Of a DNA stretch of 64,000 nt, positions 4,176-53,065 are shown piece by piece. Location of the stretch: the NCBI RefSeq assembly GCF_020171625.1, contig NZ_JAIUZY010000001.1, forward strand, positions 248,001 through 312,000, given 5' to 3'. The notes beneath the pieces are model-generated. The model did not search any database, was not told the origin of the DNA, and saw only the letters and a list, made by a program, of their open reading frames with translations. How positions within the stretch are numbered: the first letter of the stretch is position 1; every line of letters begins with the position of its first letter. Both the position numbers and the translations under genes were made by a program. This stretch comes from Salipiger bermudensis. GTDB lineage: Bacteria; Pseudomonadota; Alphaproteobacteria; Rhodobacterales; Rhodobacteraceae.

Positions 4176-4250
4176 GGGGAGGGGCGCTGCCCCTCTGCCG
4201 CGCGGGCGCGCGGCATTCACCCCGAGGTATTTGTCGAACCAGAGAAGAGG
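4176..4250 (+). repeat. Dispersed intergenic element, copy 1 (A-type core)
   Basis: Within the 323-bp recA-alaS gap. A GC hairpin (GAGGGGC 4179-4185, GCCCCTC 4189-4195) is followed by the core ATTCACCCCGAGGTATTT and GAACCAGAGAAG (4215-4246). Near-identical cores occur at 19122-19155 and 42687-42721. The rest of this gap (4251-4424) shows no gene; alaS has AAGGA shortly before its ATG. Confidence 0.7.
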
Positions 4251-4424
4251 GGGCGCGGCGCGAGAGAGAAGCGGCGTGCCCGGGACGGGAGGCGGTGGCC
4301 GGCGCGGGGCGGAAGGCGATGGTCGGGGCGGGTGGCGGCTTTTCTGTCGCGGCTTATGGACAGGGGGCGGGCGTGGCGATACACCTGCGCGAACCTCTGA
4401 GATGCCAGCCAGACAAGGACGACC

Positions 4425-7100
4425 ATGCCGAGCCTGAACGATATCCGCTCAACCTTTCTGGGCTATTTCGAGAAGCAGGGACACCAGGTGGTGCCCTCGA
4501 GCCCGCTCGTGCCGCGCAACGACCCCACGCTCATGTTTACCAACTCGGGCATGGTGCAGTTCAAGAACCTCTTCACCGGGGTCGAGACGCGCGATTACCA
4601 GCGCGCCACCTCGGCGCAGAAATGCGTGCGTGCGGGCGGCAAGCACAACGATCTCGACAACGTGGGCTACACCGCCCGCCACCACACCTTCTTCGAGATG
4701 ATGGGGAACTTCTCCTTCGGGGACTATTTCAAGAAGGAAGCCATCCCCTTCGCCTGGGAGCTGGTGACGCGCGAGCTCGACATCCCCGCCGAGCGGCTTC
4801 TGGTGACGGTCTACCACACCGATGACGAGGCGGCCGAGATCTGGAAAAAGGTCGGCGTTCCGGACGACCGGATCATCCGCATCGACACCACCGACAATTT
4901 CTGGATGATGGGGCCGACCGGGCCCTGCGGCCCGTGCACCGAGATCTTCTTCGATCACGGCGACAAGTACTGGGGTGGCCCTCCGGGCTCTCCCGAAGAG
5001 GATGGCGACCGCTTCGTCGAGATCTGGAACCTCGTCTTCATGCAGAACGAGCAGTTCGAGGACGGCTCGATGCGGGCGCTCGACATGCAGTCGATCGACA
5101 CCGGCATGGGCATCGAGCGGGTCGCGGCGCTGCTGCAGGGCACCAACGACAACTATGCGACCGACCTGATCCGGGCGCTGATCGAGGCCTCGGCGGACGC
5201 CACCTCGAGCGATCCCGACGGCCCGGGCAAGACCCATCACCGGGTCATCGCCGATCACCTGCGCTCGACCTCGTTCCTGATCGCCGACGGCGTGATGCCC
5301 TCGAACGATGGCCGCGGCTACGTGCTGCGCCGGATCATGCGCCGCGCCATGCGCCATGCCCACATGCTGGGCGCCAAGGACCCGGTCATGTACCGGCTGG
5401 TGCCGGCGCTGGTGCGCCAGATGGGGCAGGCCTACCCGGAACTCGTGCGCGCCCAGCCGCTGATCGAGGAGACGCTGAAGCTCGAGGAGACGCGCTTCAA
5501 GCAGACCCTCGACCGCGGCCTAAAGCTGCTCGACGACGAGCTGGTGGGGCTGGGCGAGGGCGCCAAGCTGCCCGGCCAGGCGGCGTTCAAGCTCTACGAC
5601 ACCTACGGCTTCCCGCTCGACCTGACGCAGGACGCGCTGCGCGAGCGTGGCCGCGAGGTCGACACCGGCGGCTTCGACGAAGCCATGGCTGAGCAGAAGG
5701 CCAAGGCGCGCGCCGCGTGGTCGGGCTCGGGCGAGGCGGCGGATCTCGCGATCTGGTTCGAGATCGCAGATGCCAAGGGCGCCACGGATTTCCTCGGCTA
5801 CGACACCGAGACCGCCGAGGGCCAGATGCTGGCGCTGGTCAAGGACGGCGCGGAGGTCGACGCGCTCGAGGCCGGCGAGAGCGGCTGGGTGGTGCTGAAC
5901 CAGACGCCGTTCTACGGCGAGAGCGGTGGCCAGGTCGGCGACAGCGGCTGGATGCGCCGGCTCGAGGACGAGGACGACGTCGCCGAGGTCACCGACACCC
6001 AGAAAATGGGCGGCGGCAAGGTCTTCGCGCATCAGGTGACGATCAAGCAGGGCCGCTTTGCCAAGGGTGAGGCGGTGGCGCTCGAGGTCGATCACGCACG
6101 CCGCGGCAAGATCCGCGCCAACCACTCGGCCACGCACCTGCTGCACGAGGCCCTGCGCCGGGCGCTTGGCGATCACGTGGCGCAGCGCGGCTCGCTGAAC
6201 GCACCGGAGCGGCTGCGCTTCGACTTCAGCCACGCCAAGGCGCTGACGCCCGAGGAGATCTCGCAGGTCGAGCGTGAGGTAAACGCCTTCATCCGGCAGA
6301 ACTCGGCGGTGAACACCCGCATCATGACGCCCGACGATGCCCGCGGCCTCGGCGCGCAGGCGCTCTTCGGCGAGAAGTACGGCGATGAGGTGCGCGTGGT
6401 GTCGATGGGCACCGAGCTGGGCTCCGGCAAAGGCACCGATGGCGAGACCTACTCGATCGAGCTCTGCGGCGGCACCCACGTGGCGCAGACCGGCGATATC
6501 GGCACCTTCGTGCTGACCTCCGAGACCGCCTCGGCGGCGGGAGTGCGGCGCATCGAGGCGCTGACCGGCGAGGCCGCGATGGCCGAACTACGTGGGCGCG
6601 ACAAGGCGCTTGGCGAAATCGAGGGTCTGCTCAAGGCGCATGGCAGCGACGCTGTCGCGCGCGTGGGTGCGCTGCTCGACGAGCGCCGCAAGCTCGAGAA
6701 CGAGGTGGCGCAGCTGCGCCGCGATCTCGCCATGGCCGGCGGCGCCGGACAGGGCGGCGGCGCCGAGGCGCGCGAGGTGGGCGGTGTCCCGTTCGTGGCG
6801 CAGGTGCTGAGCGGCGTGTCGGGCAAGGACCTGCCGCCGCTGATCGACGAGCACAAGGCGCGGCTGGGATCGGGCGCGGTGCTGCTGATTGCCGATACCG
6901 GCGGCAAGGTCGCCGTGGCGGCGGGCGTCACCGAGGACCTCACCGGCAGCCACTCGGCGGTCGATCTGGTGAAGGCGGCGGTCGAGGCGCTTGGCGGCAA
7001 GGGCGGCGGTGGACGGCCCGACATGGCGCAGGGCGGGGCAAAGGACGCCTCCGAGGCCGACGCGGCGATCAAGGCGGCGGAAGCCGTGCTGGCGGGGTGA
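4425..7100 (+). CDS. alaS: Alanine--tRNA ligase
   Basis: Class II synthetase charging tRNA-Ala, 891 aa, close to the usual 870-890. The N-terminal aminoacylation domain has [15 protein letters not shown] and [17 protein letters not shown]. The editing domain carries [13 protein letters not shown] and the zinc-ligand [13 protein letters not shown] motif. The C-Ala oligomerisation domain is glycine-rich at the end ([15 protein letters not shown]). The ATG at 4425 follows AAGGACGACC. It is followed after 4 bases by two small DUF1330 genes, which may be co-transcribed; no terminator separates them. Confidence 0.98.
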
Positions 7101-7104
7101 TCGG

Positions 7105-7389
7105 ATGACGGCCTACATGATCGCCCGCATCGACGTCACCGATCCCGAGGAATACGCGATCTATGCGGGCCAGACCGTGGCGCTCGCCGAGAAGTTCGGC
7201 GGGCGGTACCTGGTCAAGGGCGGCCCGCAGCAGGTGGTCGAGGGCGCGGCCCCGACCCGCCACGTGATCGTCGAGTTTCCGAGCCGCGCTGCCGCGGAGC
7301 GCTGGTTCAATTCCCCGGAATATCAGCGCATCCTGCCGATCGCCCTGCGGGCGTCGACGCGGGATGTGGTCATCGTCGAAGGAGTCTGA
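7105..7389 (+). CDS. DUF1330 family protein (first of two)
   Basis: 94-aa single-domain protein with the dimeric alpha/beta-barrel (ferredoxin-like) DUF1330 fold. Typical features seen are an N-terminal strand MIARIDVTDPEEY, a central GGRYLVKGG, and the C-terminal helix-strand pair with RWFNSPEYQRILPIALRAST. Biochemical role unknown for the family. The ATG at 7105 lies 4 bases after the alaS stop; an alternative in-frame ATG is four codons later. The second copy starts one base after its stop codon, so the two are probably translated together. They are diverged paralogs (GG-Y/F and SP-YQ positions shared). Confidence 0.8.
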   Translation: MTAYMIARIDVTDPEEYAIYAGQTVALAEKFGGRYLVKGGPQQVVEGAAPTRHVIVEFPSRAAAERWFNSPEYQRILPIALRASTRDVVIVEGV

Positions 7390-7390
7390 G

Positions 7391-7678
7391 ATGCCTGCAC
7401 TGTGGATCGCGCATGTGACGGTCACCGATGAAGAGGCCTATGGCCGCTACGCCACGCTGGCCGGCCCGGCCATCGCCAAGCATGGCGGGGAGTTCATCGC
7501 CCGGGCCGGGCGCTACGTCCAGCTCGAGGGCAAGGAGCGCCCGCGCAATGTGGTGGCGCGGTTCGACAGCGTCGAGGCCGCCGAGGCATGCTACCACTCG
7601 CCGGATTACCAGGAGGCGCTGAGCCATGCGCGCGGCGCCTCGGAGCGCGAGCTGCTGATCGTGGAGACCAGCGCGTAA
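7391..7678 (+). CDS. DUF1330 family protein (second of two)
   Basis: 95-aa paralog of the preceding gene. It keeps the DUF1330 pattern: IAHVTVTDEEAY at the start, HGGEFIARAGRY in the middle, and CYHSPDYQEALSHARGASERELLIVE at the end. The ATG overlaps nothing but follows the upstream stop by one base. A terminator hairpin follows 16 bases after the stop. The function is unknown; the tandem arrangement suggests a heteromer or simple duplication. Confidence 0.8.
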   Translation: MPALWIAHVTVTDEEAYGRYATLAGPAIAKHGGEFIARAGRYVQLEGKERPRNVVARFDSVEAAEACYHSPDYQEALSHARGASERELLIVETSA

Positions 7679-7694
7679 CCATCACACGAGTCAG

Positions 7695-7723
7695 GCGCGC
7701 CTTTCCGGAGGCGCGCTTTCTCT
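7695..7723 (+). terminator. Terminator after the alaS-DUF1330 group
   Basis: An 8-bp stem (GCGCGCCT 7695-7702, AGGCGCGC 7709-7716) with loop TTCCGG is followed by TTTCTCT. Confidence 0.7.
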
Positions 7724-7799
7724 GTTCGGCCGGGCGATGTGCAGCTAGGCGCTGTCACGTTTTGGCGAGGTCGTTCGTCGCGAATGCTCGTGAGAGGGG

Positions 7800-7885
7800 T
7801 GGTACGGGCGGTGGGGCTCGAACCCACACTTCCTCTCGGAAATCGGATTTTGAATCCGACGCGTCTACCATTCCGCCACGCCCGC
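7800..7885 (-). tRNA. tRNA-Leu (anticodon CAA)
   Basis: Read on the minus strand, the acceptor stem GCGGGCG (7885-7879) pairs with CGCCCGT (7810-7804; G-U at the end pair). Discriminator A and an encoded CCA follow at 7802-7800. The anticodon stem-loop is TCGGA TTCAAAA TCCGA, giving anticodon CAA (reads UUG). The T-arm contains GGTTCGAGCCC. The long variable arm fits a class II leucine tRNA; 86 nt with CCA. It is transcribed away from lipA. Confidence 0.95.
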
Positions 7886-8087
7886 ACTGGGATCCGATCT
7901 ATCCAAGGCCGCGAAGCCCGTCCAGCCCGAAATCGCGCAGAGCCGGCGCCGCGCGCGGACAGGTGCAGGGGGAACACTCGGGACCAAGGGGATACGCGAC
8001 CGGCGCCTGACGCCGGCTGCACTGGCAACTCCCCCTGCAGTGCTGTATGTTGCGGGGCAAGTCTTAAGATATTGCGGGGAAGAACCG

Positions 8088-9038
8088 TTGCGCGACATCA
8101 AGATCCCGACCGAGCGTCACCCGGAAAAGGCGCACCGCAAGGACAATCCGCAGCCCAAGAAGCCGGACTGGATCCGCGTCAAGGCGCCCACCGGCAAGGG
8201 CTACCAGGAGACCCATCGCATCATGCGCGAGCACAAGCTCGTCACGGTCTGCGAAGAGGCGGGATGTCCGAATGCCGGCGAATGCTGGAACCAGGGCCAC
8301 GCCACCATGATGATCATGGGCGATATCTGCACGCGCGGCTGCTCGTTCTGCAACATCGCCACCGGCCGGCCCAATGCGCTCGACGTGTTCGAGCCCGGAC
8401 GGGTGGCGGACGCGGTGCAGAAGCTGGGGCTGAATCACGTGGTGATCACGTCGGTCGACCGCGACGATCTCGAGGATGGCGGGGCGGAGCATTTCGCCCA
8501 GACCATCCGCGCCGTCCGTCATCGCTCGCCGTCGACCACGATCGAAATCCTGACGCCGGATTTCCTGAAATGCGCTCCCGAGGTGCTCGAGACGGTGGTG
8601 CGCGCCAAGCCGGACGTGTTCAACCACAACCTCGAAACCGTCCCGGGGCTCTACCCCGAGGTGCGCCCGGGCGCGCGCTATTTCCATTCGCTGCGCCTGT
8701 TGCAGCGGGTGAAAGAGATGGACCCGTCCATCTTCACCAAGTCGGGCATCATGGTGGGCCTTGGCGAGGACGCGCAGGCAGTGCGGCAGGTGATGGACGA
8801 CATGCGCGCGGCGGATGTCGATTTCCTGACCATCGGCCAATACCTGCAGCCGACGCCGAAGCACCACGCGGTCGATCGCTTCGTCACGCCGGACGAGTTC
8901 GCGACCTACGAGAAGAACGCCTATGGCAAGGGCTTCCTGATGGTTTCGGCCACGCCGCTGACCCGCTCGAGCTACCACGCCGGCGACGACTTCGCGCGGC
9001 TGCGCGAGGCCCGCGAGCGCAAGCTGGCCGAGGCCTGA
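8088..9038 (+). CDS. lipA: Lipoyl synthase
   Basis: Radical SAM enzyme that inserts two sulfurs into octanoyl groups on lipoyl domains, 316 aa. The radical-SAM cluster motif is CTRGCSFC (Cys 81, 85, 88). The auxiliary sacrificial cluster uses Cys 55, 60 and 66 in [12 protein letters not shown]. The C-terminal serine ligand lies in [11 protein letters not shown] choose the TTG at 8088 because family members begin with xRDxKIPxxRHPEKAH and GGGGAAGA lies just upstream. An upstream ATG at 8040 would add 16 unrelated residues. It stands alone and ends in a clear terminator. Confidence 0.95.
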
Positions 9039-9064
9039 GGAGCGCACACCGAGCGCGGAAATAC

Positions 9065-9096
9065 AAAGGGCGCCCCGATCCGGAGCGCCCTTTTTC
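9065..9096 (+). terminator. Terminator of lipA
   Basis: AAAGGGCGC (9065-9073) pairs with GCGCCCTTT (9085-9093), and the T-run continues to 9095. It lies 27 bases after the lipA stop. Confidence 0.85.
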
Positions 9097-9124
9097 GTGT
9101 GTCGCGGCGAAGGAGCCGCCCGTG

Positions 9125-9149
9125 GAAATTTCTTATTCTAAGAAATTTC
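9125..9149. repeat. AT-rich perfect inverted repeat
   Basis: GAAATTTCTTA (9125-9135) and its exact complement (9139-9149) are separated by TTC. This 11-bp stem is strikingly AT-rich for the neighbourhood. It lies 7 bases beyond the stop of the ribbon-helix-helix gene, so it could end that transcript or be a protein-binding site. Confidence 0.75.
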
Positions 9150-9156
9150 TCACCGC

Positions 9157-9384
9157 TCAGCCGTTGGCGCGGGCTTTGACGTGTTTCAGCACGTAGACCC
9201 GGATTGCCGAGGCCAGCCCGGCCTCCAACCCGCGGGTCTCGTCGATCTCCGCGGCGAGCGCATTGAGCGCCTTGCCCTCGGCCTTGGCGATGGCGCGGAA
9301 CTCGTGCCAGAACGCCTCTTCGAGAGAGACCGAGGTGCGGTGACCGCGCAGGCTGAGCGAATGCTTGATGGGGCGCCCAGTCAT
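9157..9384 (-). CDS. Ribbon-helix-helix domain protein (RHH_4 type)
   Basis: 75-aa probable DNA-binding protein. The N-terminal half has RPIKHSLSLRGHRTSVSLEEAFWHEFRAIA, split here between a strand that would form the DNA-contacting ribbon (SVSLE) and the two following helices. The end, GLASAIRVYVLKHVKA, matches the RHH_4 family of alphaproteobacteria. Its ATG overlaps the stop of the upstream DUF4169 gene (ATGA), so the two are translationally coupled. Target DNA is unknown. AT-rich palindromes flank the gene pair and are candidate operators. Confidence 0.8.
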   Translation of the reverse strand: MTGRPIKHSLSLRGHRTSVSLEEAFWHEFRAIAKAEGKALNALAAEIDETRGLEAGLASAIRVYVLKHVKARANG

Positions 9385-9557
9385 TCGTCCCGCCTGTGCC
9401 CGTCGAGATCGCGCTCGGCTCTCTCCGTCACGCTCTTGTCGCGCCCCTTGTCGGCCTTGCTGCGACCGTGCACGGCTGCATTGCGCTCCGCCGTCGTGCG
9501 CTTGTCGGCCTTGTCGCGGGCCTTACGAGCCTTGTTCAGGTTGATCACTTTGCTCAT
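9381..9557 (-). CDS. DUF4169 family protein
   Basis: 58-aa, very basic and helical small protein: MSKVINLNKARKARDKADK at the start and DLDGHRRDE at the end. This matches the short DUF4169 proteins found next to fumC and an RHH protein in Rhodobacteraceae. Function unknown. The ATG at 9557 was preferred to far upstream in-frame codons because only this part looks like protein; the ribosome site (AGG) is weak. Confidence 0.75.
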   Translation of the reverse strand: MSKVINLNKARKARDKADKRTTAERNAAVHGRSKADKGRDKSVTERAERDLDGHRRDE

Positions 9558-9744
9558 GCTGCGAAACCTAGCGCGGCCCATACGTTTCGCAACGGGCGAT
9601 CCGGCGGCCCGAGAGGAAATTTGCGGGGCGGGAGTCTGGCCGTTCGTGGCGGCTGAAGCGCGGCGTTTCGAGTACGGCGCAGGGGCGGCGCAACCGCCGC
9701 CACGGGCGAGGCGCGGGGGCGTGCGCGTGTCCGTGCCCAAGGGC

Positions 9745-9768
9745 CAAAAATTTTAGCTAAAATTTTTG
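9745..9768. repeat. Perfect 24-bp AT-rich palindrome
   Basis: The half-site CAAAAATTTTAG is followed immediately by its exact reverse complement. It lies between the fumC terminator and the DUF4169 gene, in a 294-bp gap (9558-9851) that otherwise shows no gene. Such a long A/T palindrome is conspicuous in this GC-rich region. Confidence 0.8.
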
Positions 9769-9796
9769 CGCCTCTGGCCGCGCAGTGGTGCCAAAA

Positions 9797-9820
9797 GAAA
9801 AAACGGGCCCGAAGGCCCGC
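9797..9820 (-). terminator. Terminator of fumC
   Basis: On the minus strand CGGGCC-TTCG-GGCCCG (9819-9804) is followed by a run of six Ts and TCTTTT. The UUCG tetraloop and U-run make a classic intrinsic terminator 32 bases after the fumC stop. Confidence 0.92.
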
Positions 9821-9851
9821 TTTCGATAGTCGTCGTCGTGGGAAGCGCAGA

Positions 9852-11246
9852 TCAGTCCTTCGGGCCGATCATCTGCTCGGGCCGCACCACGCGGTCGAAG
9901 GTCTCTTCGTCGACGAAGCCGAGGTTGATCGCCTCTTCGCGCAGCGTGGTACCGTTCTTGTGCGCGGTCTTGGCGACCTTGGTGGCGTTGTCGTAGCCGA
10001 TGGTCGGCGCCAGCGCCGTCACCAGCATCAGCGATTCCTTCATCAGCTTCTCGATCCGGGCTTCGTTGGCCTGGATGCCGACCACCATGTTGTCGGTGAA
10101 GGCCGAGGCGCTGTCGCCCAGCAGCTGCATCGATTGCAGCACGTTGTAGCTCATCATCGGATTGTAGACGTTGAGCTCGAAATGACCCTGCGATCCGGCC
10201 ATGCCGACGGCGGCGTCGTTGCCCATCACATGGGCGCAGACCATGGTCAGCGCCTCGGCCTGGGTCGGGTTCACCTTGCCGGGCATAATCGACGAGCCGG
10301 GCTCGTTCTCCGGCAGGATCAGCTCGCCGAGGCCCGAGCGCGGGCCCGAGCCCAGCAGGCGGATGTCGTTGGCGATCTTGAAGAGCGACGCGGCCACGGT
10401 CTTGAGCGCGCCGGAGAACATCACCATGGCGTCATGCGCCGCAAGCGCCTCGAACTTGTTCGGCGCGGTGACAAAGGGCAGGCCGGTGATCTCGGCCATG
10501 TTCGCGGCCACGGCCTCGCCCCAGCCCTTCTTGGTGTTGAGCCCGGTGCCCACGGCGGTGCCGCCCTGTGCCAGCTCGTAGATGTCGGGCAGGCAGGCCT
10601 CGACGCGGGCGATGCCCTTGCGGACCTGATGCGCGTAGCCCGAGAACTCCTGGCCCAGCGTCAGCGGGGTGGCGTCCTGGGTGTGGGTGCGGCCGATCTT
10701 GATGATGTCGCTGAATTCGTCACGCTTGGCTTCGAGTGCCGCTGCGAGCTTTTCCAGCCCCGGCAGCAGAACGTCGCGCGCCTGCATGGCGATGCCCACA
10801 TGCATGGCGGTGGGGAAGGTGTCGTTCGAGGACTGGCCCATGTTGCAGTGATCGTTCGGGTGGACGGGCTTTTTCGAGCCCATCTCGCCGCCCAGCATCT
10901 CGATGGCACGGTTCGAGATCACCTCGTTGGCGTTCATGTTCGACTGGGTGCCCGAGCCGGTCTGCCAGACCACCAGCGGGAAGTTGTCGTCGAACTTGCC
11001 CTCGATCACCTCGCCGGCGGCGGCGATGATCGCGTCGGCGATCTCGGCCTCCATCGCGCCGTTGGCCTTGTTGGCCATGGCGCAGGCCTTCTTCACCACG
11101 CCGAGCGCACGGATGATCGGCACCGGCTGCTTTTCCCAGCCGATCGGGAAGTTCATTATCGAGCGCTGGGTCTGCGCGCCCCAGTACTTGTCTGCGGGAA
11201 CCTCGAGCGGGCCGAAGCTGTCGGTTTCGGTGCGGGTCTGGGTCAC
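9852..11246 (-). CDS. fumC: Fumarate hydratase, class II
   Basis: TCA-cycle enzyme that interconverts fumarate and malate; iron-independent tetramer. 464 aa, the normal length. The signature [11 protein letters not shown] is near residue 318 (catalytic Ser). [19 protein letters not shown] and [18 protein letters not shown] form the substrate site. The GTG at 11246 is chosen because AAAGGAGG sits 7 bases upstream; a start at 11318 would add 24 non-family residues. Upstream on the same strand is sspB; downstream, past a terminator, the DUF4169-RHH pair. Confidence 0.97.
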
Positions 11247-11364
11247 GGGAACCTCCTTTGGTACGCGGTCGCGCAATCTCTTACCCCGTGGCTCGGGAAA
11301 GGCAAGGCTGCATACCAAGGGATACCGTTAACAGCCGGGTCTTAGGCTGCGCCGGCTGCCGGGA

Positions 11365-11841
11365 TCACGGCTTGCGGAATGCGTCGAGGCGCACGACCTC
11401 CGCGTCGTGCTGCCCGTCCGAGGGGCGCTCCGGTCCGCCATCGGGCGGGGTCGGATCGTCCTCATCCTCGTCCTCCTCCTCCGAATCCTCCTGGGTTTCG
11501 AAGCGCAGGCCGAACTCGACCGAGGGATCCACGAAGGTCTTGATCGCGTGATAGGGGATATAGAGTCGTTCGGGCGCCTCGCCGAAGCTGAGCGTCACCG
11601 CAAAGCCATCCTCACCGACCTCGAGATCGTCGAAGCGGTGCTGCAGCACCACGGTCATCTCGCCGGGATAGCGGTCGGAGAGCCAGTCGGCCAGTTCGAC
11701 ATCCGGGTACTGCGTGTCGAAGGTGATGAAGAAATGGTGGTCGCCGGGAAGCCCTCGCTCGGCGACATCCGTGAGAACGTCGTGAATCAGGCCGCGCATG
11801 GCGCGATGCATGAGATTGCCGTAGTCGATGCCGCCGGACAT
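11365..11841 (-). CDS. sspB: ClpXP adaptor SspB (alphaproteobacterial type)
   Basis: 158-aa adaptor that delivers ssrA-tagged proteins to ClpXP. The folded N-terminal domain contains HHFFITFDTQYPDVELADWL and the substrate-groove strand MTVVLQHRFDDLEV. A flexible acidic linker (EEEDEDEDD) follows. The C-terminal peptide VVRLDAFRKP is the ClpX-docking (XB) motif. The matching tmRNA gene ssrA lies about 2.3 kb away in this window, so both halves of the ribosome-rescue degradation pathway are present. The ATG at 11841 is the only sensible start for this fold. Confidence 0.9.
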   Translation of the reverse strand: MSGGIDYGNLMHRAMRGLIHDVLTDVAERGLPGDHHFFITFDTQYPDVELADWLSDRYPGEMTVVLQHRFDDLEVGEDGFAVTLSFGEAPERLYIPYHAIKTFVDPSVEFGLRFETQEDSEEEDEDEDDPTPPDGGPERPSDGQHDAEVVRLDAFRKP

Positions 11842-11972
11842 GGCACTATTCCTTGTGGTCTTTGGGTGTACCTTATTCGATCTGGCAGCGAGGAAAAGCC
11901 TCTGCGGCAGGAAAATGCAAGCAGGTGTACCGAGGCGTCGTGCCTGCGCGCGTCCGGACGCGGCGCTTCCCC

Positions 11973-13223: not shown

Positions 13224-13279
13224 GGGTCCGCTTTGACCGGGCTCTGTAACGGCGTCATGACGCATCGGAGGGGGTCATC

Positions 13280-14044: not shown

Positions 14045-14375
14045 GCCTGGGAATGTGGGGAAGTGCAGGCTTCTGTTGCCAGGTGCCTGCGAACCCCGCC
14101 TTACGCTGCAAGGCGCAAGGGCTTAGATTTCGGTCTTTCGGACTGCTTACGCAGCCAGAGCGACCGGAGCACGATTGTCGTTGGCAATTATGCAATGTGA
14201 ACCGATAACGGTGGTATCTCACCGGGACAAAGCCACATCTTTACACGTTCGTCGATCCTGTTTCGGCCCCATGCCTCCCCCCAACGAAGGGTGATTTGGT
14301 GGAGCCGCCGGGTACCGCCCCCGGGTCCGATCCGCTTATTACATGCGCGTTTATGCCCATAGTCCCCGAAGGAAC
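14045..14375 (-). ncRNA. ssrA: tmRNA gene, circularly permuted two-piece type
   Basis: Rescues stalled ribosomes and tags nascent chains for ClpXP. The gene is permuted. The acceptor piece comes first on the minus strand and ends in the T-arm and GGCTCCACCA (CCA end at 14297). After a short spacer the coding piece begins GGGGCCGAAACAGGATCGACG (5' end at 14270). GGGGCCG pairs with CGGCTCC of the acceptor piece to form the tRNA-like acceptor stem. A tag reading frame lies inside the coding piece. This is the alphaproteobacterial two-piece arrangement known from Caulobacter. The outer ends are estimated: 5' from the promoter, 3' only approximate. Confidence 0.9.
14147..14185 (-). other. tmRNA tag reading frame (ANDNRAPVALAA-stop)
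   Basis: GCC AAC GAC AAT CGT GCT CCG GTC GCT CTG GCT GCG TAA encodes ANDNRAPVALAA. The AND start and the LAA end are the hallmarks of SspB-binding and ClpX-recognised proteolysis tags. The resume codon could be the GCC at 14185. Confidence 0.9.
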
Positions 14376-14381
14376 GAGTTG

Positions 14382-14409
14382 AATATAGGCAGGTTGCGTG
14401 CGGATTCAA
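14382..14409 (-). promoter_or_regulatory. Promoter of ssrA
   Basis: On the minus strand TTGAAT (14409-14404) and TATATT (14387-14382) are 16 bases apart. This predicts a transcript start near 14375, just ahead of the acceptor piece. Confidence 0.65.
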
Positions 14410-14471
14410 AGGGGGTCTGGCGGGGGTGGAGCGAATTTCTTTGGCGGGTTTCCCTGTGGCGAGGGCGTGAC

Positions 14472-14530
14472 GCCTCCGGCGGGAGTATTTTTGACGAAGA
14501 GAAGCAGGGGCGCTGCGCGTGGGGCCCCGG
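14472..14530 (+). repeat. Dispersed intergenic element, copy 2 (B-type core)
   Basis: The core GCCTCCGGCGGGAGTATTT then TTGACGAAGAGAAG (14472-14504) is followed by CAGGGGCGCTGCGCG. The same core in the opposite orientation is at 19179-19208 and 42745-42773. It lies between ssrA and purM. Confidence 0.65.
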
Positions 14531-19087: not shown

Positions 19088-19209
19088 GAAGGGGGCGCTG
19101 CCCCCTCTTGGCCTTTGGCCAATTCACCCCCGAGGTATTTTTGAACCAGAGAAGCCATGAGCGCGGCGCCCCTGGCGTCTCTTCGTCGAAAATACTCCCG
19201 CCGGAGGCA
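19088..19209 (+). repeat. Dispersed intergenic element, copy 3 (paired A and B cores)
   Basis: A hairpin AGGGGGCGCTGCCCCCT (19090-19106) is followed by a second hairpin (TTGGCC 19108-19113, GGCCAA 19117-19122). Then come an A-type core (19122-19155, ending GAACCAGAGAAGCC) and, 24 bases on and inverted, a B-type core (19179-19208). The paired layout recurs at 42661-42773. Confidence 0.75.
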
Positions 19210-42502: not shown

Positions 42503-42660
42503 GGAGGGGCGCTGCGCCCCTGTCGCACCAAAAGTGCGCCTCTCAGGAGGAAAGAGGGAGCGCTGCACCCTGTCGCACCGGAGGTGCGCAATTCAAGGAG
42601 AAGGAGGGGGCTCTGCCCCCTGTCGCACCAAAGGTGCGCCACCAAGAAAGAACAAGGGGG
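42503..42660 (+). repeat. 50-bp tandem array of double hairpins
   Basis: Three units with an exact 50-bp period: TGTCGCACC occurs at 42521, 42571 and 42621. Each unit has a hairpin like GAGGGGCGCTGCGCCCC followed by TCGCACC-AAA-GGTGCG. A fourth half-unit (AGGGGGCTCTGCCCCCT, 42655-42671) leads into the paired A/B cores. Part of the 413-bp gcdH-hlyIII gap. Confidence 0.8.
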
Positions 42661-42777
42661 CTCTGCCCCCTCTTAGCCTGTGGCCAATTCACCCCCGAGG
42701 TATTTCCGAACCAAAGAAGCCTGGAGCACTGCGCCCGCATCTTCTCTTCGTCAAAAATACTCCCGCCGGAGGCAGGC
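42661..42777 (+). repeat. Dispersed intergenic element, copy 4 (paired A and B cores)
   Basis: The A-type core ATTCACCCCCGAGGTATTT with GAACCAAAGAAGCC (42687-42721) is followed 23 bases on by the inverted B-type core (TCTTCGTCAAAAATAC then TCCCGCCGGAGGC, 42745-42773). It is the same arrangement as at 19122-19208. Confidence 0.75.
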
Positions 42778-42846
42778 CGGACCGGGCCGCCCGTAGCAAT
42801 GCTCGACAGGCGCGCAGCGGAGATGTCGCGTCTTTGGCAGCGCGTG

Positions 42847-43738: not shown

Positions 43739-44026
43739 TCAGGCGAGGCGCGCAAGCGGTGTCACCGTGGCCCCGCTGCCCTCGGCGATGCGCTCGAGCG
43801 CCTTGCGGAAGGCTTCGGTGTGGGGCGCGTGCATGTGGGCGTCGTAGGCCTCCGGGGTGTCGTATTCGGCCATCAGAACGATGCTGCCGCCTTTCTCGCT
43901 CAGGGCCTCGAAGCGGATATTGCCGGGCTCCCCGCGCGAGGCTTCGGCGAGACGGGCGGCAAGGGTCTTGAGTCGGGTATCCTGTCCGGGCCGGGGGATG
44001 GCGCGGACCATGACGGAACAAGTCAT
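43739..44026 (-). CDS. Putative quinol monooxygenase (ABM domain)
   Basis: 95-aa antibiotic-biosynthesis-monooxygenase fold, a ferredoxin-like dimer. Key segments are VMVRAIPRPGQDTRLKTL, EPGNIRFEALSEKGGSIVLM (shown by GNIRFEAL) and HMHAPHTEAFRKALERI. The conserved His/Asn/Trp-type site positions are partly kept. Relatives such as YgiN oxidise quinols. Alone on the minus strand; a GC hairpin (43708-43728) lies downstream without a T-run. Confidence 0.8.
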   Translation of the reverse strand: MTCSVMVRAIPRPGQDTRLKTLAARLAEASRGEPGNIRFEALSEKGGSIVLMAEYDTPEAYDAHMHAPHTEAFRKALERIAEGSGATVTPLARLA

Positions 44027-44135
44027 CAGTCACTCCGTAAATCTACTGTTGAGAAGTCTTTGCGCCGGGCAGCGGCGTGTATCGCTAACATAGGCGCGGT
44101 CGCGCGGATTTCACCGGGCTGGCATATCAAGAAAA

Positions 44136-44165
44136 CGTGTCGGGACGCCCCCTGAGGGGCGCCCC
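44136..44165 (-). terminator. Probable terminator of the fadA-fadJ transcript
   Basis: On the minus strand GGGG-CGCCCC and GGGGCG-CCC form a 9-10 bp stem (44165-44142, one mismatch) around a TCAG loop. GTTTTC follows a few bases later. Confidence 0.5.
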
Positions 44166-44180
44166 GCCATCGCCTCGCGA

Positions 44181-46382: not shown

Positions 46383-46399
46383 GATCTGGTGTCCTCCCG

Positions 46400-47611
<1,212 letters not shown>

Positions 47612-47624
47612 TCTGCTCCTCCTC

Positions 47625-48263
47625 TCAGGCCCGGTCCGCGGGGGAACCGGGCATCAGGTCATATGGGTGTTTCCAGCCGTCGAGCGCCTCGATGTTCGAC
47701 AGCCAGCGATCGATCTCCGGCCAGTCGCTGCGGGCGAAGCCGAAGGGTTCGGGATAAAACAGGTAGCCGCAGCAGGAGAAATCGGCGTGGGTCGGGCCGT
47801 CTCCCACGACCCAGTCGCGGCCCGCGAGATGGGCGTTCAGCACCTGGTAGGCGGCCTTGAGGCGGCCTTGGGTGAAGGCGATGACCTCGGCCGGGCGCTT
47901 GTCCTCGGGCAGGAAATTCATCAGGAAACGCGTCATGCCGGCCTGGCTCGAGAGCTTGTGGTTGTCCCAGAACACCCAGCGCATCACCTCGCGCGCGTCC
48001 TCGGGGGTGGCGCCGCCGAAGCGGCCGGTCTTCTCGGTGATGTACATCTGGATCACGCCGGACTGGGTGAGCCTGACGTCGCCGTCTACGAGCACGGGGG
48101 CTTCGCCCATCTCGTTGATCTGCGCGCGGTACTCGGTGCTACGGGTCTCGCCGTTGAAGAAGTCCACCTTGACCGGCTCCCAGTCGAGCCCGGATAGCGC
48201 GAGGGGCAGGGCGGCCTTGTAGGCATTGCCGGATTCCCCGAAGCAATAGAGTTTGATGGTCAT
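47625..48263 (-). CDS. Glutathione S-transferase family protein
   Basis: 212 aa. The N-terminal thioredoxin-like domain has KLYCFGESGNAYKAALPLAL, the glutathione-binding loop NEMGEAPVLVDGDVRLTQSGVI (shown by EAPVLVDGD and TQSGVI). The helical C-terminal domain has GPTHADFSCCGYLFY. It is the first gene of the GST-fadA-fadJ group. It may detoxify reactive acyl or aldehyde products; substrate not evident. Confidence 0.88.
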   Translation of the reverse strand: MTIKLYCFGESGNAYKAALPLALSGLDWEPVKVDFFNGETRSTEYRAQINEMGEAPVLVDGDVRLTQSGVIQMYITEKTGRFGGATPEDAREVMRWVFWDNHKLSSQAGMTRFLMNFLPEDKRPAEVIAFTQGRLKAAYQVLNAHLAGRDWVVGDGPTHADFSCCGYLFYPEPFGFARSDWPEIDRWLSNIEALDGWKHPYDLMPGSPADRA

Positions 48264-48299
48264 GCGGTCGTCCTTTCGGCTGCGCTTGTGGGTCGGGCC

Positions 48300-48354
48300 G
48301 GAGCGGGGGTTTCGCACCCCCGCACCCCCGCGGAGTATTTTCGACGAAGAGAAG
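48300..48354 (-). repeat. Dispersed intergenic element, copy 5
   Basis: The hairpin GCGGGGGTTTCGCACCCCCGC (48303-48323) is followed by CCGCGGAGTATTTTCGACG and AAGAGAAG (48328-48354). It is inverted relative to copy 6, which lies in the same 488-bp gap (48264-48751). The gap holds no gene that I can see. Confidence 0.65.
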
Positions 48355-48567
48355 GGGCTGCCGCCGAAGGCGGGTAACCCGGTGTTAACTTCGAATGCAG
48401 TAGCGTTTCCGGGCGGTACAGGCTGGAGAGCCGATGACCGCACGTGGAGAAGCGCCGCCATCCCGCCGCAGCACTGGCCGGATGGCGGCGTGGACCGAGA
48501 GCTGCCCACCAAGCTGCCGCAAGGGCTCCCCGCCGCGCGGCGCCGGGCCCGATGCGCGGTCCCCCTG

Positions 48568-48619
48568 CTTCTTTACGTCCCAAATACTCCACGGGGGTCC
48601 GGGGGTGTGAAACCCCCGG
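48568..48619 (+). repeat. Dispersed intergenic element, copy 6
   Basis: CTTCTTTACGTCCCAAATAC then TCCACGGGGG (48568-48597) is followed by a hairpin (CCGGGGGT 48599-48606, ACCCCCGG about 48612-48619). The core shares the CTTC...AAATACTCC pattern with the other copies. Confidence 0.65.
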
Positions 48620-48751
48620 TCCTTCGCTCGAGATGGGCGGCGTGGTTGGAAAAATAGGCAGAACGCTGGCCACAACAGTGGCCGGATCCGTGGCGATCAT
48701 GCTGCGCATTGGCCCTCCCTGCCGCCGCGGCTCGTGTAACGTCGGTCAAAG

Positions 48752-48964
48752 CTAGCGCTTGCGCGCCTCCAGCTCGGCGGTGAACAGCTGCAGCCGGTGC
48801 GAGAGCACCTCGCTGTCGGTGACGCTGTCGAAATGCTCGAAGAGAAACGACAGTGCCTCGCCCTCGTCGAGCCCGGCTTCCTCGGCAAAGCGGCGCAGGC
48901 CGCGATAGCCGTCCTCGGTCATCGCGAGCGACAGGCGGCGGGTCAGGCGAAAGCGTTTCGGCAA
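48752..48964 (-). CDS. Conserved small protein, unknown function
   Basis: 70-aa helical protein: PKRFRLTRRLSLAMTEDGYR, then GLDEGEALSFLFEHFDSV and HRLQLFTAELEARKR. The basic start could fold as a ribbon and the rest as helices, which resembles a ribbon-helix-helix layout, but I cannot confirm that. The TTG at 48964 is chosen because GGAGAGAGACC lies directly upstream and the frame before it is not protein-like. It sits 61 bases after the acyl-CoA dehydrogenase stop, so probably same transcript. Confidence 0.65.
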   Translation of the reverse strand: MPKRFRLTRRLSLAMTEDGYRGLRRFAEEAGLDEGEALSFLFEHFDSVTDSEVLSHRLQLFTAELEARKR

Positions 48965-49025
48965 GGTCTCTCTCCTTCGGTCAGGGCGGATGGGCGGGGC
49001 GCGAGGCCCCGCCGCCACCCTCGCG

Positions 49026-50807
49026 TCAGAAGCTTTCGACGTCCAGCGCCATCACGGTCTCGGCACCGCTCTCGATCCGCGCCAGATGGGTGCGGGTCGC
49101 GGGCAGCTGGCGCGCCATGTAGTAGCGCCCGGTGGCGATCTTGGCGTTGAGGAAAGCGCGGTCGGCACCGTCCCCGTCCAGCGCGGCCTTCGCCGCCACC
49201 GCCATGCGCGCCCACATCAGGCCGAGGCAGACATGGCCGAACAGGTGCATGAAGTCATACGACCCCGACAGCGCCTCGTTCGGGTTCTTCATGCCGTTCT
49301 GCATGAAGAACATGCCGGCCTGCTGCAGGTCCTTCGAGGCGGCCTTGAGCGGCTCGAGGAACTGCGCGTCGAACGCCTCGTCCTGGCCCTTGTGCTCGGC
49401 GATGAAGCGCTTGACCATGTCGAAGAAGGCCATGACGTGCTTGCCGCCATCCTGCGCCAGCTTGCGGCCCACCAGATCCAGCGACTGGATGCCGTTGGTG
49501 CCCTCGTAGATCATCGTGATGCGCGCATCGCGGACGAACTGCTCAAGCCCCCATTCCCGTGTGAAGCCCGAGCCGCCCAGCGTCTGCTGCGCCAGCACCG
49601 CGGTCTCGAAGCCCTTGTCGGTGAGGAAGCCCTTGATCACCGGGGTCAGCAGAGAGATCAGCCCCTCGGCATCCTTGTCGCCCGAGCGATGCGCCTGATC
49701 GATCAGCGAGGCGCCCCAGAACACCAGCGCCCGCGCGCCCTCGGTCAGGGCCTTCTGGTCCATCAGGTTGCGGCGCACATCCGGGTGGACCATGATCGAA
49801 TCCGCCGGCCCCTCGGGGTTCTTGGCGCCGGTCACGTCGCGGCCCTGAAGCCGGTCCTTGGCGAAGCCGAGCGCGTTCTGGTAGGCCACGGCGCCCTGTG
49901 CATAGCCCTGCAGGCCGACGCCGAGCCGGGCTTCGTTCATCATGGTGAACATCGCCCGCATGCCCTTGTGCGCCTCGCCCACGAGGAAGCCGGTGGCGCC
50001 GTCGTAGTTCATCACGCAGGTGGCGTTGCCGTGGATGCCCATCTTGTGCTCGAGTCCGCCGCAGCTCACCGCGTTGCGATCGCCCAGCGAGCCGTCCTCG
50101 TTGACCATGAACTTGGGCACGATGAACAGCGAGATGCCCTTCACCCCCTCGGGTCCGCCGGGGATCTTGGCCAGCACGAGGTGGATGATGTTGTCGACCA
50201 TGTCGTGCTCGCCGGCCGAGATCCAGATCTTCGAGCCGGTGATCTTGTAGGTCCCGTCCTCCTGCGGCTCGGCCTTGGTCTTGATGAGACCCAGATCGGT
50301 GCCGCAATGGGGCTCGGTGAGGTTCATCGTGCCGCCCCACTCGCAGCTCACCATCTTGGGCAGATAGGTGGCCTTCTGTTCGTCGGAGCCATGCGCGTGG
50401 ATGGCATTGTAGGCGCCATGGGTCAGGCCCTGATACATGTTGAAGGCCATGTTGGCCGAGGAGAACATCTCGCCCACCGCGGTGGAGACGAGATAGGGCA
50501 GGCCCTGACCGCCATATTCGGGATCGCAATCCAGCGCCGGCCAGCCGCCCTCGCGCATCTGGTTGAAGGCATCGAGGAAGCCGTCCGGAGTGCGCACCAC
50601 GCCGTTTTCCAGCGTGCAACCCTGCGCGTCGCCCACGGGGTTCAGCGGGGCGAGCACGTTCTCGGCGAGTTTCGCCGCCTCGTCGAGGATCGCCGCGGTG
50701 GTGTCGCGGTCGAGCTCGTCATAGCCCGGAATGCCGGTGCTGCTGACATCGAGGACGTCGTGCAGCACGAACTGCATGTCCTTCACGGGGGCGGTGTAGC
50801 TCGGCAT
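49026..50807 (-). CDS. Acyl-CoA dehydrogenase, long DmdC-like type
   Basis: 593-aa FAD enzyme with the extra C-terminal domain of the DmdC/large ACAD group. [35 protein letters not shown] and [15 protein letters not shown] form the substrate/FAD site. The catalytic Glu is in [20 protein letters not shown]. DmdC acts on methylmercaptopropionyl-CoA in DMSP breakdown, but paralogs act on other acyl-CoAs, so the substrate is open. The ATG follows AAGGAGGAGAG. A MerR gene starts its group 32 bases upstream on the same strand. Confidence 0.9.
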
Positions 50808-50839
50808 ATCTCTCCTCCTTCATGCCTCCGGCCGATGGA

Positions 50840-51238
50840 TCAGCCGGCCTTTTTCTGCTGCAGCTGCTGGAGCATCCTCTCGCCCCATGCCAGCTGGTCC
50901 TTCAGATCGTTGATCGCCGCATCGAGCTCGTCGCGCTGCTTTTGCAGGTCGTCGAGCCGCTGCTGGGCGATCTCGTAGGTGCGGGCGATCTGCGTGTGCT
51001 GCTGGTCGCCCATGTCATACAGGTCGAGCAGCTGGCGGATCTCCTCGAGGCTGAAGCCGAAGCGCTTACCGCGCAGGATCAGCTTGAGCCGGGCGCGGTC
51101 GCGCCGGGTGAAGAGCCGTTTCTGACCTTCCCGCACCGGGAAGAGCAGCTCCTTCTGCTCGTAGAAACGCAGGGTCCGGGGGGTGACGTCGAACATGTCG
51201 CACATTTCCCGGATCGTCATCATCTGCTCGTCGCTCAT
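50840..51238 (-). CDS. MerR-family regulator (first of two)
   Basis: 132 aa. The N-terminal HTH reads MTIREMCDMFDVTPRTLRFY then EQKELLFPVREGQKRLFTRR. The helix pair KLILRGKRFGFSLEEIRQLL and a long C-terminal coiled coil rich in Gln follow. No cysteine metal site is present, so it is of the ligand- or acyl-CoA-responsive type. It directly precedes the acyl-CoA dehydrogenase gene and likely controls it. The ATG at 51238 has GGGGAG upstream. Confidence 0.88.
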   Translation of the reverse strand: MSDEQMMTIREMCDMFDVTPRTLRFYEQKELLFPVREGQKRLFTRRDRARLKLILRGKRFGFSLEEIRQLLDLYDMGDQQHTQIARTYEIAQQRLDDLQKQRDELDAAINDLKDQLAWGERMLQQLQQKKAG

Positions 51239-51317
51239 TGGTTCTGCTCCCCTCACGTCGCGTTAAGATGCAGCGTGAGGTGCGCCTTCACACCGAGTCT
51301 TACAATGGCAAATTTGG

Positions 51318-51404
51318 TTGACGTAACCGAGACGCCGCGTCACTTTCAAGTTGACGTAACTTCCTTTCGCGTCACCTGTTAGCGAAGGACATTTCGTTAC
51401 GTAA
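51318..51404. promoter_or_regulatory. Repeated TTGACGTAAC boxes, putative MerR operators
   Basis: TTGACGTAAC occurs at 51318-51327 and again at 51351-51360, 33 bases apart, and CGTTACGTAAG at about 51394-51404. The boxes lie in the 307-bp gap (51239-51545) upstream of the first MerR gene, where its promoter should be. ACGTNA-type dyads are known for MerR regulators of acyl-CoA catabolism such as LiuR. Binding is inference. Confidence 0.45.
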
Positions 51405-51545
51405 GCCGGGCGCTTCGCGAAACCGAATGTCGGGGACGATCAGGCGCCTCACGAGATTTTTTTCAAAGCGCTTTCAAGAACGCGTCATCCGCGCGAAATT
51501 CAACGCCCCGAAGGGCGGCAGGCGGCGAGATTCGCGCCGCGGCCC

Positions 51546-51917
51546 TCAGCCTTCCAGCGATTTCGCGGTGTCGTCCCGAAGCGCTTTGAGCTCCGCCATG
51601 GCCTCGTCGAGCTGGCGCCTCTGCTCGGCCAGTTCCAGCATCTGCCGGTCGGCCATCTCGAGCCAGGCCTGCATCTGCGCCTGGCTGCCTTCCTGCTCGC
51701 GCATCGCCAGCCACTGCCGGATGTCCTCGAGCTGGAAGCCGAAGCGGCGTCCGCGCAGGATCAGCACCATGCGCGCCACTTCGCGCGGGCCGTAATAGCG
51801 CGAGCGGCCCTCCCGGTCGGGCGAGAGCAGCTCGATATACTCGTAGTAGCGCAGGGTGCGCGGCGTCACTTCGAAGCGCTCGCACATCTCCTTAAAGCTG
51901 AGACGGGACTCGCTCAT
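51546..51917 (-). CDS. MerR-family regulator (second of two)
   Basis: 123-aa paralog of the first MerR gene. The HTH is LSFKEMCERFEVTPRTLRYY followed by EYIELLSPDREGRSRYYGPR. The dimerisation coil again lacks cysteines. Start ATG at 51917 follows AAGGAGGAGCAG. It is transcribed toward the first MerR gene and divergent from the thioesterase pair, so it could control either side. Confidence 0.88.
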   Translation of the reverse strand: MSESRLSFKEMCERFEVTPRTLRYYEYIELLSPDREGRSRYYGPREVARMVLILRGRRFGFQLEDIRQWLAMREQEGSQAQMQAWLEMADRQMLELAEQRRQLDEAMAELKALRDDTAKSLEG

Positions 51918-52042
51918 CTGCTCCTCCTTGACCATGAGGCTGAACCTAGTGCGCCCATGGCGGCGGCGCAACTCGATCGGCAGAGCCTTGCGAAGCCCTT
52001 GTCACGCCCGCATAAAGGCGGCGACAGCCACGGAGGCGCCCT

Positions 52043-52468
52043 ATGCATGTCGACAAGACCACGCTCGCGCGCGAGTTCATCAACCTTATCCCGCAGGCGC
52101 GGGCGCTGCAGCTTGAGATCACCGAGATCCGCGACGGTGTCGCGGTGATCCGAATGCCCTATGACGCGGGCCTGGTGGGTGATCCGGACACCGGGGTGAT
52201 CCATGGCGGCGCGGTCTCGACGCTGATGGACACCTGCGGCGGCGCGGCGACCATGGCACATCCGAGCAATCCCGGCGGCACCGCCACCATCAGCCTGCGC
52301 ATCGACTACCTGCGCGCGGCCACCCCCGGCCAGGCCATCGTCGCGCGGGCCGAGTGCCACCACGTCACCCGGTCAGTGGCTTTCGTGCGCGCCACCGCCC
52401 ATGACGACGACGCCGAGAACCCGGTGGCCACCGCCACCGGCACCTTCACCGTGGAGGGCGCCGCATGA
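52043..52468 (+). CDS. PaaI-type hotdog thioesterase (first)
   Basis: 141 aa, single hotdog domain. The core motif is GVIHGGAVSTLMDTCGGAAT, with HGG and the catalytic Asp/Thr helix, then ISLRIDYLRAATPGQAI. It probably hydrolyses acyl-CoA thioesters. Its stop overlaps the next start (ATGA). The pair is divergent from the second MerR regulator. Confidence 0.87.
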   Translation: MHVDKTTLAREFINLIPQARALQLEITEIRDGVAVIRMPYDAGLVGDPDTGVIHGGAVSTLMDTCGGAATMAHPSNPGGTATISLRIDYLRAATPGQAIVARAECHHVTRSVAFVRATAHDDDAENPVATATGTFTVEGAA

Positions 52469-52974
52469 GCCGCCGCCCCCCCGAGCCGGTGCAGGTGGTC
52501 AAGCAACGCCGCGACGCCGCGCTTGCCGCGCTCGCCGAGCGGGTGCCCTATATCCGCTTTCTCGACATCTCCTTCGATCGCCGCGGCGACGAGCTGACCG
52601 GCGTGATGCATTACGACGACAAGCTGATCGGCAATCCGCACCTGCCGGCCCTGCATGGCGGCGTCACCGCCGCCTTCCTCGAGGTGACCGCCATCATCAC
52701 CCTCAGCTGGGGGCTGCTCTGGGAAGACGTCGAGAGCGGCGTCCTCACCCTCGACGCGCTCGAGGCCGGAGAGCTTCCGCGCTTGCCCAAGACCATCGAC
52801 TTCACCGTCGACTACCTGCGCTCGGGCCTGCCGCGCGATGCCTATGCCCGGGCCCACGTCACCCGCTCGGGCCGCCGCTATGCCAGCGTGCGCGCCGAAG
52901 CCTGGCAGGACAATCACAGCCGCCCCATCGCCCAGGCCCACGCGCATTTCCTGATGCCCCGCAAGGAGAGCTGA
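52465..52974 (+). CDS. PaaI-type hotdog thioesterase (second)
   Basis: 169 aa. A longer N-terminal helix (VQVVKQRRDAALAALAERV) is followed by the hotdog motif LHGGVTAAFLEVTAIITLSW and IDFTVDYLRSGLPRDAYARA. It differs from the first paralog in the catalytic helix (EVT instead of DTC). The two may form a heteromer. The overlap with the first gene indicates one operon. Confidence 0.86.
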   Translation: MSRRPPEPVQVVKQRRDAALAALAERVPYIRFLDISFDRRGDELTGVMHYDDKLIGNPHLPALHGGVTAAFLEVTAIITLSWGLLWEDVESGVLTLDALEAGELPRLPKTIDFTVDYLRSGLPRDAYARAHVTRSGRRYASVRAEAWQDNHSRPIAQAHAHFLMPRKES

Positions 52975-53003
52975 CGCAGGCCGCCCGCAGCCCGCGTCCC
53001 CGG

Positions 53004-53065
53004 CTTCTCTACGTCAAAAATACTCCGGGGGAGTCCGCGCCTGCGCGGACGGGGGCAGCGCCCCC
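53004..53065 (+). repeat. Dispersed intergenic element, copy 7
   Basis: CTTCTCTACGTCAAAAATAC then TCCGGGGGAGTCC (53004-53036) is followed by two hairpins (GTCCGCGCCTGCGCGGAC 53033-53050; GGGGGCAGCGCCCCC 53051-53065). It fills most of the 119-bp gap between the thioesterases and the MATE gene. Confidence 0.7.

Follow-up and report, generated by a model that had tools for sequence, protein, structure and literature searches.

Dispersed extragenic elements with a bipartite core in Salipiger bermudensis and its relatives, tentatively read as gene-end binding sites of a co-evolving factor

A 64-kb stretch of the Salipiger bermudensis genome (assembly GCF_020171625.1, contig NZ_JAIUZY010000001.1, positions 248,001 to 312,000; hereafter the window) carries a short element with a bipartite core that recurs between genes across this genome and in other Rhodobacteraceae. 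The conserved unit sits at fixed positions, prefers intergenic regions at gene ends, avoids divergent promoters, pairs with copies of another type, and is spelled in group-specific words in one register. We tentatively read it as an extragenic 3′-end element built on a sequence-specific binding site for a putative co-evolving factor, with a probability of roughly 0.37.

The core is given here with its GC-rich arms on the TATTT side, opposite to the direction used in the sequence-only reading that preceded this work. It consists of TATTT, two free bases (three in one window core) and a purine-rich 12-mer ending in GAAG (GACG in one window core), and its main words in this genome are A, GAACCARAGAAG; B, GACGAAGAGAAG; D, GACGTARAGAAG or AACGTAGAGAAG; and C, RGCCAGAAGAAG. 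The element is present at all seven places named in the sequence-only reading, but they hold nine cores and not one each, as those at 19088 and 42661 are head-to-head pairs. The AAAATAC proposed as the core is literal in only six of the nine and also occurs twice in the window outside any element; the shorter AAATAC, preceded in that direction by two or three free bases, is constant in all nine. Two flavours had been distinguished and at least four exist: A (..GGTTC), B (..TTCGTC), D (..TACGTC; 48568 and 53004) and C (..TGGCC; elsewhere in the genome). A generic pattern fits eight of the nine window cores, the ninth being the GACG-ending one at 19176-19194, and the TCCCGCCGGAGG end is present in three of the six B/D cores (14486, 19176 and 42741). 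The placement between genes held for all nine, by predictions made here and throughout with a home-made codon-usage gene finder. The GC hairpins said to touch most copies are common companions but lie outside the invariant core, and cores of one relative, genome G124, are mostly without them. The elements of the window are as follows.

4179..4227, + strand: GC arm of the 4228 core, with hairpin GAGGGGCGCTGCCCCTC (4179-4195), a second hairpin and then CACCCCGAGG
4228..4247, + strand: A-type core TATTTGTCGAACCAGAGAAG with three free bases; the aligned copy of S. bermudensis HTCC2601 has two letters changed, one of them in the free bases
14470..14485, + strand: B arm ACGCCTCCGGCGGGAG
14486..14504, + strand: B-type core TATTTTTGACGAAGAGAAG, single, adjoining the tmRNA gene
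19091..19122, + strand: A arm hairpins GGGGGCGCTGCCCCC (19091-19105) and TTGGCCTTTGGCCAA (19108-19122)
19136..19154, + strand: A-type core TATTTTTGAACCAGAGAAG, left half of an A/B pair between convergent genes
19176..19194, − strand: B-type core TATTTTCGACGAAGAGACG, ending GACG and not GAAG, right half of the A/B pair
19195..19208, − strand: B arm (CTCCCGCCGGAGGC on the + strand)
42656..42700, + strand: A arm, with hairpin GGGGGCTCTGCCCCC (42656-42670), a second hairpin and TTCACCCCCGAGG
42701..42719, + strand: A-type core TATTTCCGAACCAAAGAAG, left half of an A/B pair between convergent genes
42741..42759, − strand: B-type core TATTTTTGACGAAGAGAAG, right half of the pair, with 21 bp between the GAAG ends
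42760..42773, − strand: B arm (CTCCCGCCGGAGGC on the + strand)
48336..48354, + strand: B-type core TATTTTCGACGAAGAGAAG with a different GC arm (..CACCCCCGCGGAG)
48568..48586, − strand: D-type core TATTTGGGACGTAAAGAAG
53004..53022, − strand: D-type core TATTTTTGACGTAGAGAAG, about 30 bases past the end of the predicted gene 52465-52974
53033..53050, − strand: D arm hairpin GTCCGCGC..GCGCGGAC

The core at 42701..42719 lies at a gene-order breakpoint relative to two S. bermudensis genomes, and an extra copy of hairpin GGGGGCTCTGCCCCC stands nearby at 42606-42620. Scanning the window with Rfam 15 returned only tmRNA and tRNA models at the gathering score and no known structured RNA at the elements; three matches at the 42.6-kb element all scored far below it. 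The permuted alphaproteobacterial tmRNA gene (14062-14414, − strand) was found by its Rfam match and was missed by ARAGORN.

The family is present beyond chance. In the 4.74-Mb genome, 85 B/D-like cores were found at one mismatch or fewer, together with 67 A-like cores by a shorter exact pattern (45 full-length at three mismatches or fewer), and the reversed patterns gave 0. Seven C-like cores were counted on contig C1, the sole contig counted for this type, and a looser pattern gave 63 matches in this 729-kb contig, four of them inside predicted genes, and 0 in reverse. These counts support the dispersed extragenic family that had been proposed, with cores abundant genome-wide and not equally frequent in coding regions. 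Hundreds per genome had been suggested; there are at least 150 cores, and nine per 64 kb exceeds the density implied by the genome-wide counts. The A core was also seen in contigs of S. bermudensis HTCC2601 and DP6N14-6 and in one metagenome-assembled Rhodobacteraceae contig.

Gene context was surveyed in contig C1, 800 kb of HTCC2601 and 28 more loci of this genome, species-shared copies being counted twice. Only one of the 101 clusters overlaps a predicted gene. Among the 98 that could be classified, 41 lie between convergent and 12 between divergent genes, compared with 132 and 198 of the 792 intergenic regions of at least 60 bases. There are 41 head-to-head pairs (32 A/B, 7 B/C, 1 A/C, and 1 of A with a three-base A variant), whose GAAG ends are 21 bp apart in 34 pairs, 20 bp in 4, and 22, 33 and 138 bp in one each, so that 39 of 41 fall within 20-22 bp. 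Random re-pairing would give 17 same-class pairs; a single one was found, and its cores are 138 bp apart. By eye, facing pairs in the relatives G162 and G155 also join two slightly different words (e.g. AGAACAATGAAG with GGAACAATGAAG), which would fit an avoidance of identical arms. Several contigs (C7, C13 and C15 at their starts, C1 at its end) end about 154 bp past an A/B composite, as if the elements break the assembly. Bases 1-17 of contig C1 are CGACGCTCTTCCGATCT, which we take to be Illumina adapter sequence, and assembly contamination is probable there.

The conserved unit is held by strong purifying selection at fixed positions. Alignment to HTCC2601 carried through the core at 43 of the 58 C1 cores, the other 15 being dropped; each partner was the best-scoring match with 500-bp flanks, which makes orthology likely, not proved, and gaps were scored as changes. 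Only 1 of 215 sites changed in TATTT (0.5%) and 17 of 516 in the 12-mer (3.3%, the third free base of the three-base variant being counted within it), as did 5 of 430 in the ten bases preceding TATTT. The free bases drift like the flanks: 14 of 86 changed (16%), against 175 of 1290 sites further upstream and 205 of 1107 downstream. By pattern, 23 of the 28 syntenic C1 clusters have an element in HTCC2601, where a partner core has sometimes appeared or disappeared; the five exceptions comprise three at runs of N and two in which the element is visible despite altered letters.

The proposed search of related genomes was run on a sample of 148 Rhodobacterales. The B pattern (one mismatch or fewer) matches in 9 of them and a looser frame in 49, compared with two single hits for the reversed control. 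Genomes differ in the 12-mer while the free bases vary, as in CTTCTTCTGTTC-NN-AAATAC of G105. The A word is found in 67 copies in G000, 52 in G151 and 51 in G065, and the word GGAAAGATGAAG occurs in ten genomes, with 65 copies in G013, 47 in G049 and 47 in G124. All 47 exact 12-mers of G124 sit within the full motif, and six more motif copies have one mismatch; across about 30 exact copies the conserved block reaches only TGCA before TATTT and at most one base past GAAG. Of the 53 motif copies in G124, 41 fall within the 0.96-2.53 Mb interval of contig 1, in a genome of 3.6 Mb. Contig 8 of G138 (76 kb), apparently a polysaccharide-gene replicon, carries twenty cores in 40 kb, denser than its genome-wide count implies, with facing pairs between several convergent gene pairs.

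Different words in one register were seen in the gap between genes that we take from their protein sequences to be pdxA and rsmA (the names Rrf2 and cysteine desulfurase likewise come from the protein sequences). Of 20 Salipiger genomes, 18 could be placed at this gap, including G154 with an incorrect start, and two (G155 and G159) could not; the 12-mer of the gap differs among species groups. The A word followed by AC-ATG stands in G000, G151 and G065, with one change in G161; AGAAAGATGAAG-AC-ATG in G148 and G149; AGAACAATGAAG-AC-ATG in G156 and G162; GGAAAGATGAAA forms in G160 and G164; and GGAAAGATGAAG-AC-ATG in G163, where TATTT is shortened to TATT. The element looks decayed in G152, G153, G157 and G158 and is absent from G150 and G165. 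A genome-wide tally, limited to matches to one searched pattern with other words uncounted, agrees with the local word in G149 (22 of 22 AGAAAGATGAAG), G148 (23 of 24), G162 (23 of 27 RGAACAATGAAG) and G156 (5 of 9), and roughly in G164 (9 of 10 GGAAAGATGAAG). G160 gave 5 of 6 AGAAAGATGAAG and G155 a mixture (12 and 9), and the tallied words have 0 copies in G000, G151, G065 and G161. In G000, G151 and G065 the local A word also agrees with the genome-wide one, by the A copy counts given above. In a tree built from rsmA only, G000, G151 and G065 group together (0.98), as do G148 and G149 (1.00), and the words of G156/G162 and of G152/G153/G157/G164 share one clade (1.00). The 12-mer words thus mostly, not strictly, follow descent. 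By eye, the gap preceding the cysteine desulfurase gene has a core in both G000 and G124.

The same gap was read by eye in other genera, at loci given for 29 of the 56 non-Salipiger genomes with an rsmA match, 28 of which were placed (G182 was not). G210 carries the element in the same register (GAAG-AC-ATG), G024 carries one in the same direction and G168 is doubtful; seven genomes (G002, G027, G102, G170, G181, G189 and G204) carry one in the opposite direction, six of them just after a TGA, and 18 of the 28 loci have no visible element. Elements have thus been both newly gained and re-spelled in place.

Orientation relative to genes was scored in genomes that carry the GGAAAGATGAAG word, at 56 loci in all, 30 of them in G124 and 26 elsewhere; two intragenic ones were set aside. 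At 42 of the remaining 54 the upstream gene reads into TATTT, and in 34 of these 42 its stop codon lies 15-60 bases ahead of TATTT; tandem gene pairs follow the order stop-TATTT-GAAG in 30 cases against 11 (binomial p=0.004), and a single locus of the 54 is divergent.

On the reading as a binding site, a trans-acting factor, presumably a DNA-binding or, less likely, an RNA-binding protein, would read the 12-mer word, and its specificity would drift and drag the sites along. Bound at the site, the factor might contribute to the closure or insulation of transcription units or to setting the 3′ ends of transcripts. RNA hairpins would come from the GC arms, and the A arm resembles an intrinsic terminator, with a GGGGGCAGAGCCCCC-type hairpin ahead of a T-rich stretch. 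The arms are also inverted repeats dispersed through the genome, so inverted copies may recombine homologously and flip the intervening DNA.

Of the binding-site reading, the pattern of selection and the dialects are demonstrated, while the factor and its action are inferred. Several observations weigh against it. Several words coexist in one genome, so that a single factor is not the obvious reader of all of them. The local and the genome-wide word can disagree: G153 has RGAACAATGAAG in 13 of 14 matches genome-wide and a decayed GGAAAGATGA form at pdxA-rsmA, while G163, G152 and G157 have no genome-wide match to the searched pattern. G161, with the A word in this gap and only four A cores, falls apart from the A genomes in the rsmA tree, with weak support (0.26). 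The direction bias is not strict, 11 of the 41 tandem cases being reversed, and only the A singles of Salipiger show it clearly (12 to 2, with the three-base variant counted in), the ratios for B, C and D singles being 1 to 2, 3 to 3 and 2 to 2; these counts therefore disfavour a strict one-way signal. At pdxA-rsmA the next start lies two bases after GAAG, and full termination there would therefore silence rsmA. Hairpins before the core are inconsistent as well: in the consistent class, the 40 preceding bases show no folding advantage over shuffled sequence in G124 (n=22, mean z -0.30) and fold somewhat better in other genomes (n=20, mean z -1.16).

An alternative that we hold only slightly less probable is that these are repeats akin to repetitive extragenic palindromes (REPs) and bacterial interspersed mosaic elements (BIMEs) with no dedicated reader: palindromic sequences that spread long ago, were kept where harmless, as at 3′ ends, and act through hairpins and recombination between copies. 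The elements are dispersed, extragenic, paired and at 3′ ends, and in this loose sense we file them as REP/BIME-like. In the portion of the REP survey of Di Nocera et al. (2013, PMC3733652) that we draw on, the GTAG and CGTC superfamilies are likewise short, dispersed and extragenic, form head-to-head heterodimers with hairpin arms, and favour convergent and unidirectional gaps near 3′ ends. The opposite orientation at pdxA-rsmA in seven other genera, with no element or no gap in many, is also, by eye, as expected of repeated gains. However, the elements belong to neither superfamily. The GTAG tag at the hairpin foot is lacking: 60 windows of 150 nt, of which 59 lie on a core and some overlap, contain GTAG/CTAC 8 times, where the contig rate predicts about 30. 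CGTC-type REPs have, according to the same portion of that survey, a stem of 8-9 bp directly after CGTC with a loop of 4-5, whereas none of 30 B/D cores has a stem of even 3 bp there. The REP-associated Y1 transposase (RAYT, PF01797) was found in none of the 15 core-rich genomes searched, by a search that was positive in 5 of 14 control genomes. Passive repeats, moreover, should not hold a bipartite word of 17 letters while freeing two central ones, nor switch the word between species groups in the same register. Among the literature matches listed, titles and abstract openings describe no such motif in Rhodobacteraceae; the main text of the RepRanger paper (PMC12306157) does not name Rhodobacter, Roseobacter or Salipiger, and PMC2267715 does not name Rhodobacter. 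A further report (PMC5082802) describes terminator stem-loop homologues of the Bradyrhizobium small RNA BjsR3 in many Rhizobiales and Rhodobacterales.

That the elements are ordinary intrinsic (Rho-independent) terminators which merely look alike, a GC hairpin with a T-rich stretch (..GGAGTATTTTT) that acts in both directions in pairs, we consider unlikely. Both kinds of site have GC hairpins and T-rich stretches near stops, and the position of the stop codons ahead of TATTT in the relatives also speaks for this reading. Many cores follow a GC hairpin; by eye, most of 30 A arms have two hairpins ahead of a stretch rich in T or pyrimidines; and a classic hairpin with a T run precedes one HTCC2601 core as well as its copy in this genome. 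Yet the free bases, often G or C, fall within and break the would-be T tract, clear hairpins stand at a minority of the relatives' copies in the consistent class (22 in G124, 20 in others) and not directly before the T tract of every one, and the G124 stretch folds as its shuffles do. Unlike a terminator, the core does not depend on a hairpin being there, and beyond the T stretch it has 12 more fixed letters that a terminator would not need. Some cores are followed by the next start after only two bases. The hairpin is thus accessory to the core and not part of it.

Gene-order breakpoints bear on a further alternative, dispersed sites of a site-specific recombinase, with two half-sites around the free central dinucleotide, that inverts DNA between inverted copies. 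Sites of serine recombinases have half-sites around a central dinucleotide, and the core shares this geometry. Relative to HTCC2601, the C1 segments 43.0-44.9, 45.0-48.4 and 290.6-729.1 kb are inverted, with inverted elements at both ends. At a 6-kb threshold, which misses the 44.8-45.2 kb region although block order makes it a break, breakpoints fall in 5 of 29 intergenic regions with an element and in 1 of the 205 without (p=1.2e-4). Orientation changes at four of the five (p=9e-4), the fifth being a size difference without inversion. The element breakpoint at 507.7 kb and the single break without an element bound blocks beside runs of N in the HTCC2601 scaffold that are not inverted in G065 as far as fetched, and both may be assembly artefacts; once these two and the size difference are left out, the counts drop to 3 of 27 with an element and 0 of 204 without (p=1.4e-3). 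The association is weaker relative to G065 (2 of 29 against 1 of 178, p=0.05), where two further junctions outside the test carry element pairs and an inversion at 361.7/470.2 kb has no elements. All compared genomes are draft assemblies, in which inverted repeats can create false inversions. Copies share about 50-150 bp by eye, and homologous recombination between them suffices for the rearrangements. The spacer is sometimes three bases. We regard recombinase sites as very improbable.

The least probable alternative, watermarks of the DNA-uptake type favoured in the uptake of kin DNA, finds a likeness in the DNA uptake sequences of Neisseriaceae, which in the part of PMC3630211 relied on here have group-specific dialects, mostly exact copies (cf. 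47 perfect and 6 with one mismatch in G124) and inverted pairs at terminators, but whereas intragenic copies are common there, the present cores are almost never within genes, number only tens to about two hundred, have several words per genome and are bipartite with a free centre.

Other candidates were set aside. For guide-RNA pairing of the 12-mer by a separate gene, small-RNA pairing at histone 3′ ends is a precedent, but every exact 12-mer of G124 lies in the motif, so no full complement, the only kind considered, exists elsewhere. A replichore strand bias does not fit the mixture of 27 forward and 26 reverse copies in G124, a phage origin the few IMG/VR matches (11 and 3 stretches for two words), and a promoter the convergent pairs. 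Binding sites of CtrA, LexA, sigma-54 and IHF were also considered, by consensus sequence only.

Extended to the whole family, the binding-site reading becomes a doubtful proposal, namely a Rhodobacteraceae-wide gene-end signal in which a putative factor would read a word of 19 letters in two parts (TATTT and the 12-mer, separated by a free dinucleotide) at extragenic sites numbering from tens to about two hundred in each genome; factor and word would co-evolve, giving every group a dialect of its own at positions that the groups share. A near letter-perfect word with two free central letters and a group-specific spelling in one register is what would be expected of a site co-evolving with its reader. 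Were the elements passive, they would still be a REP-like class, present across the family, that the published GTAG/CGTC scheme does not cover, and inversions between Salipiger genomes might arise from them. If the signalling proposal is true, there would be a bacterial 3′-end or insulator code independent of the hairpin with T tract or of Rho, and an important marine and soil family would have an undescribed gene-end device, whose dialects would offer a route to its reader.

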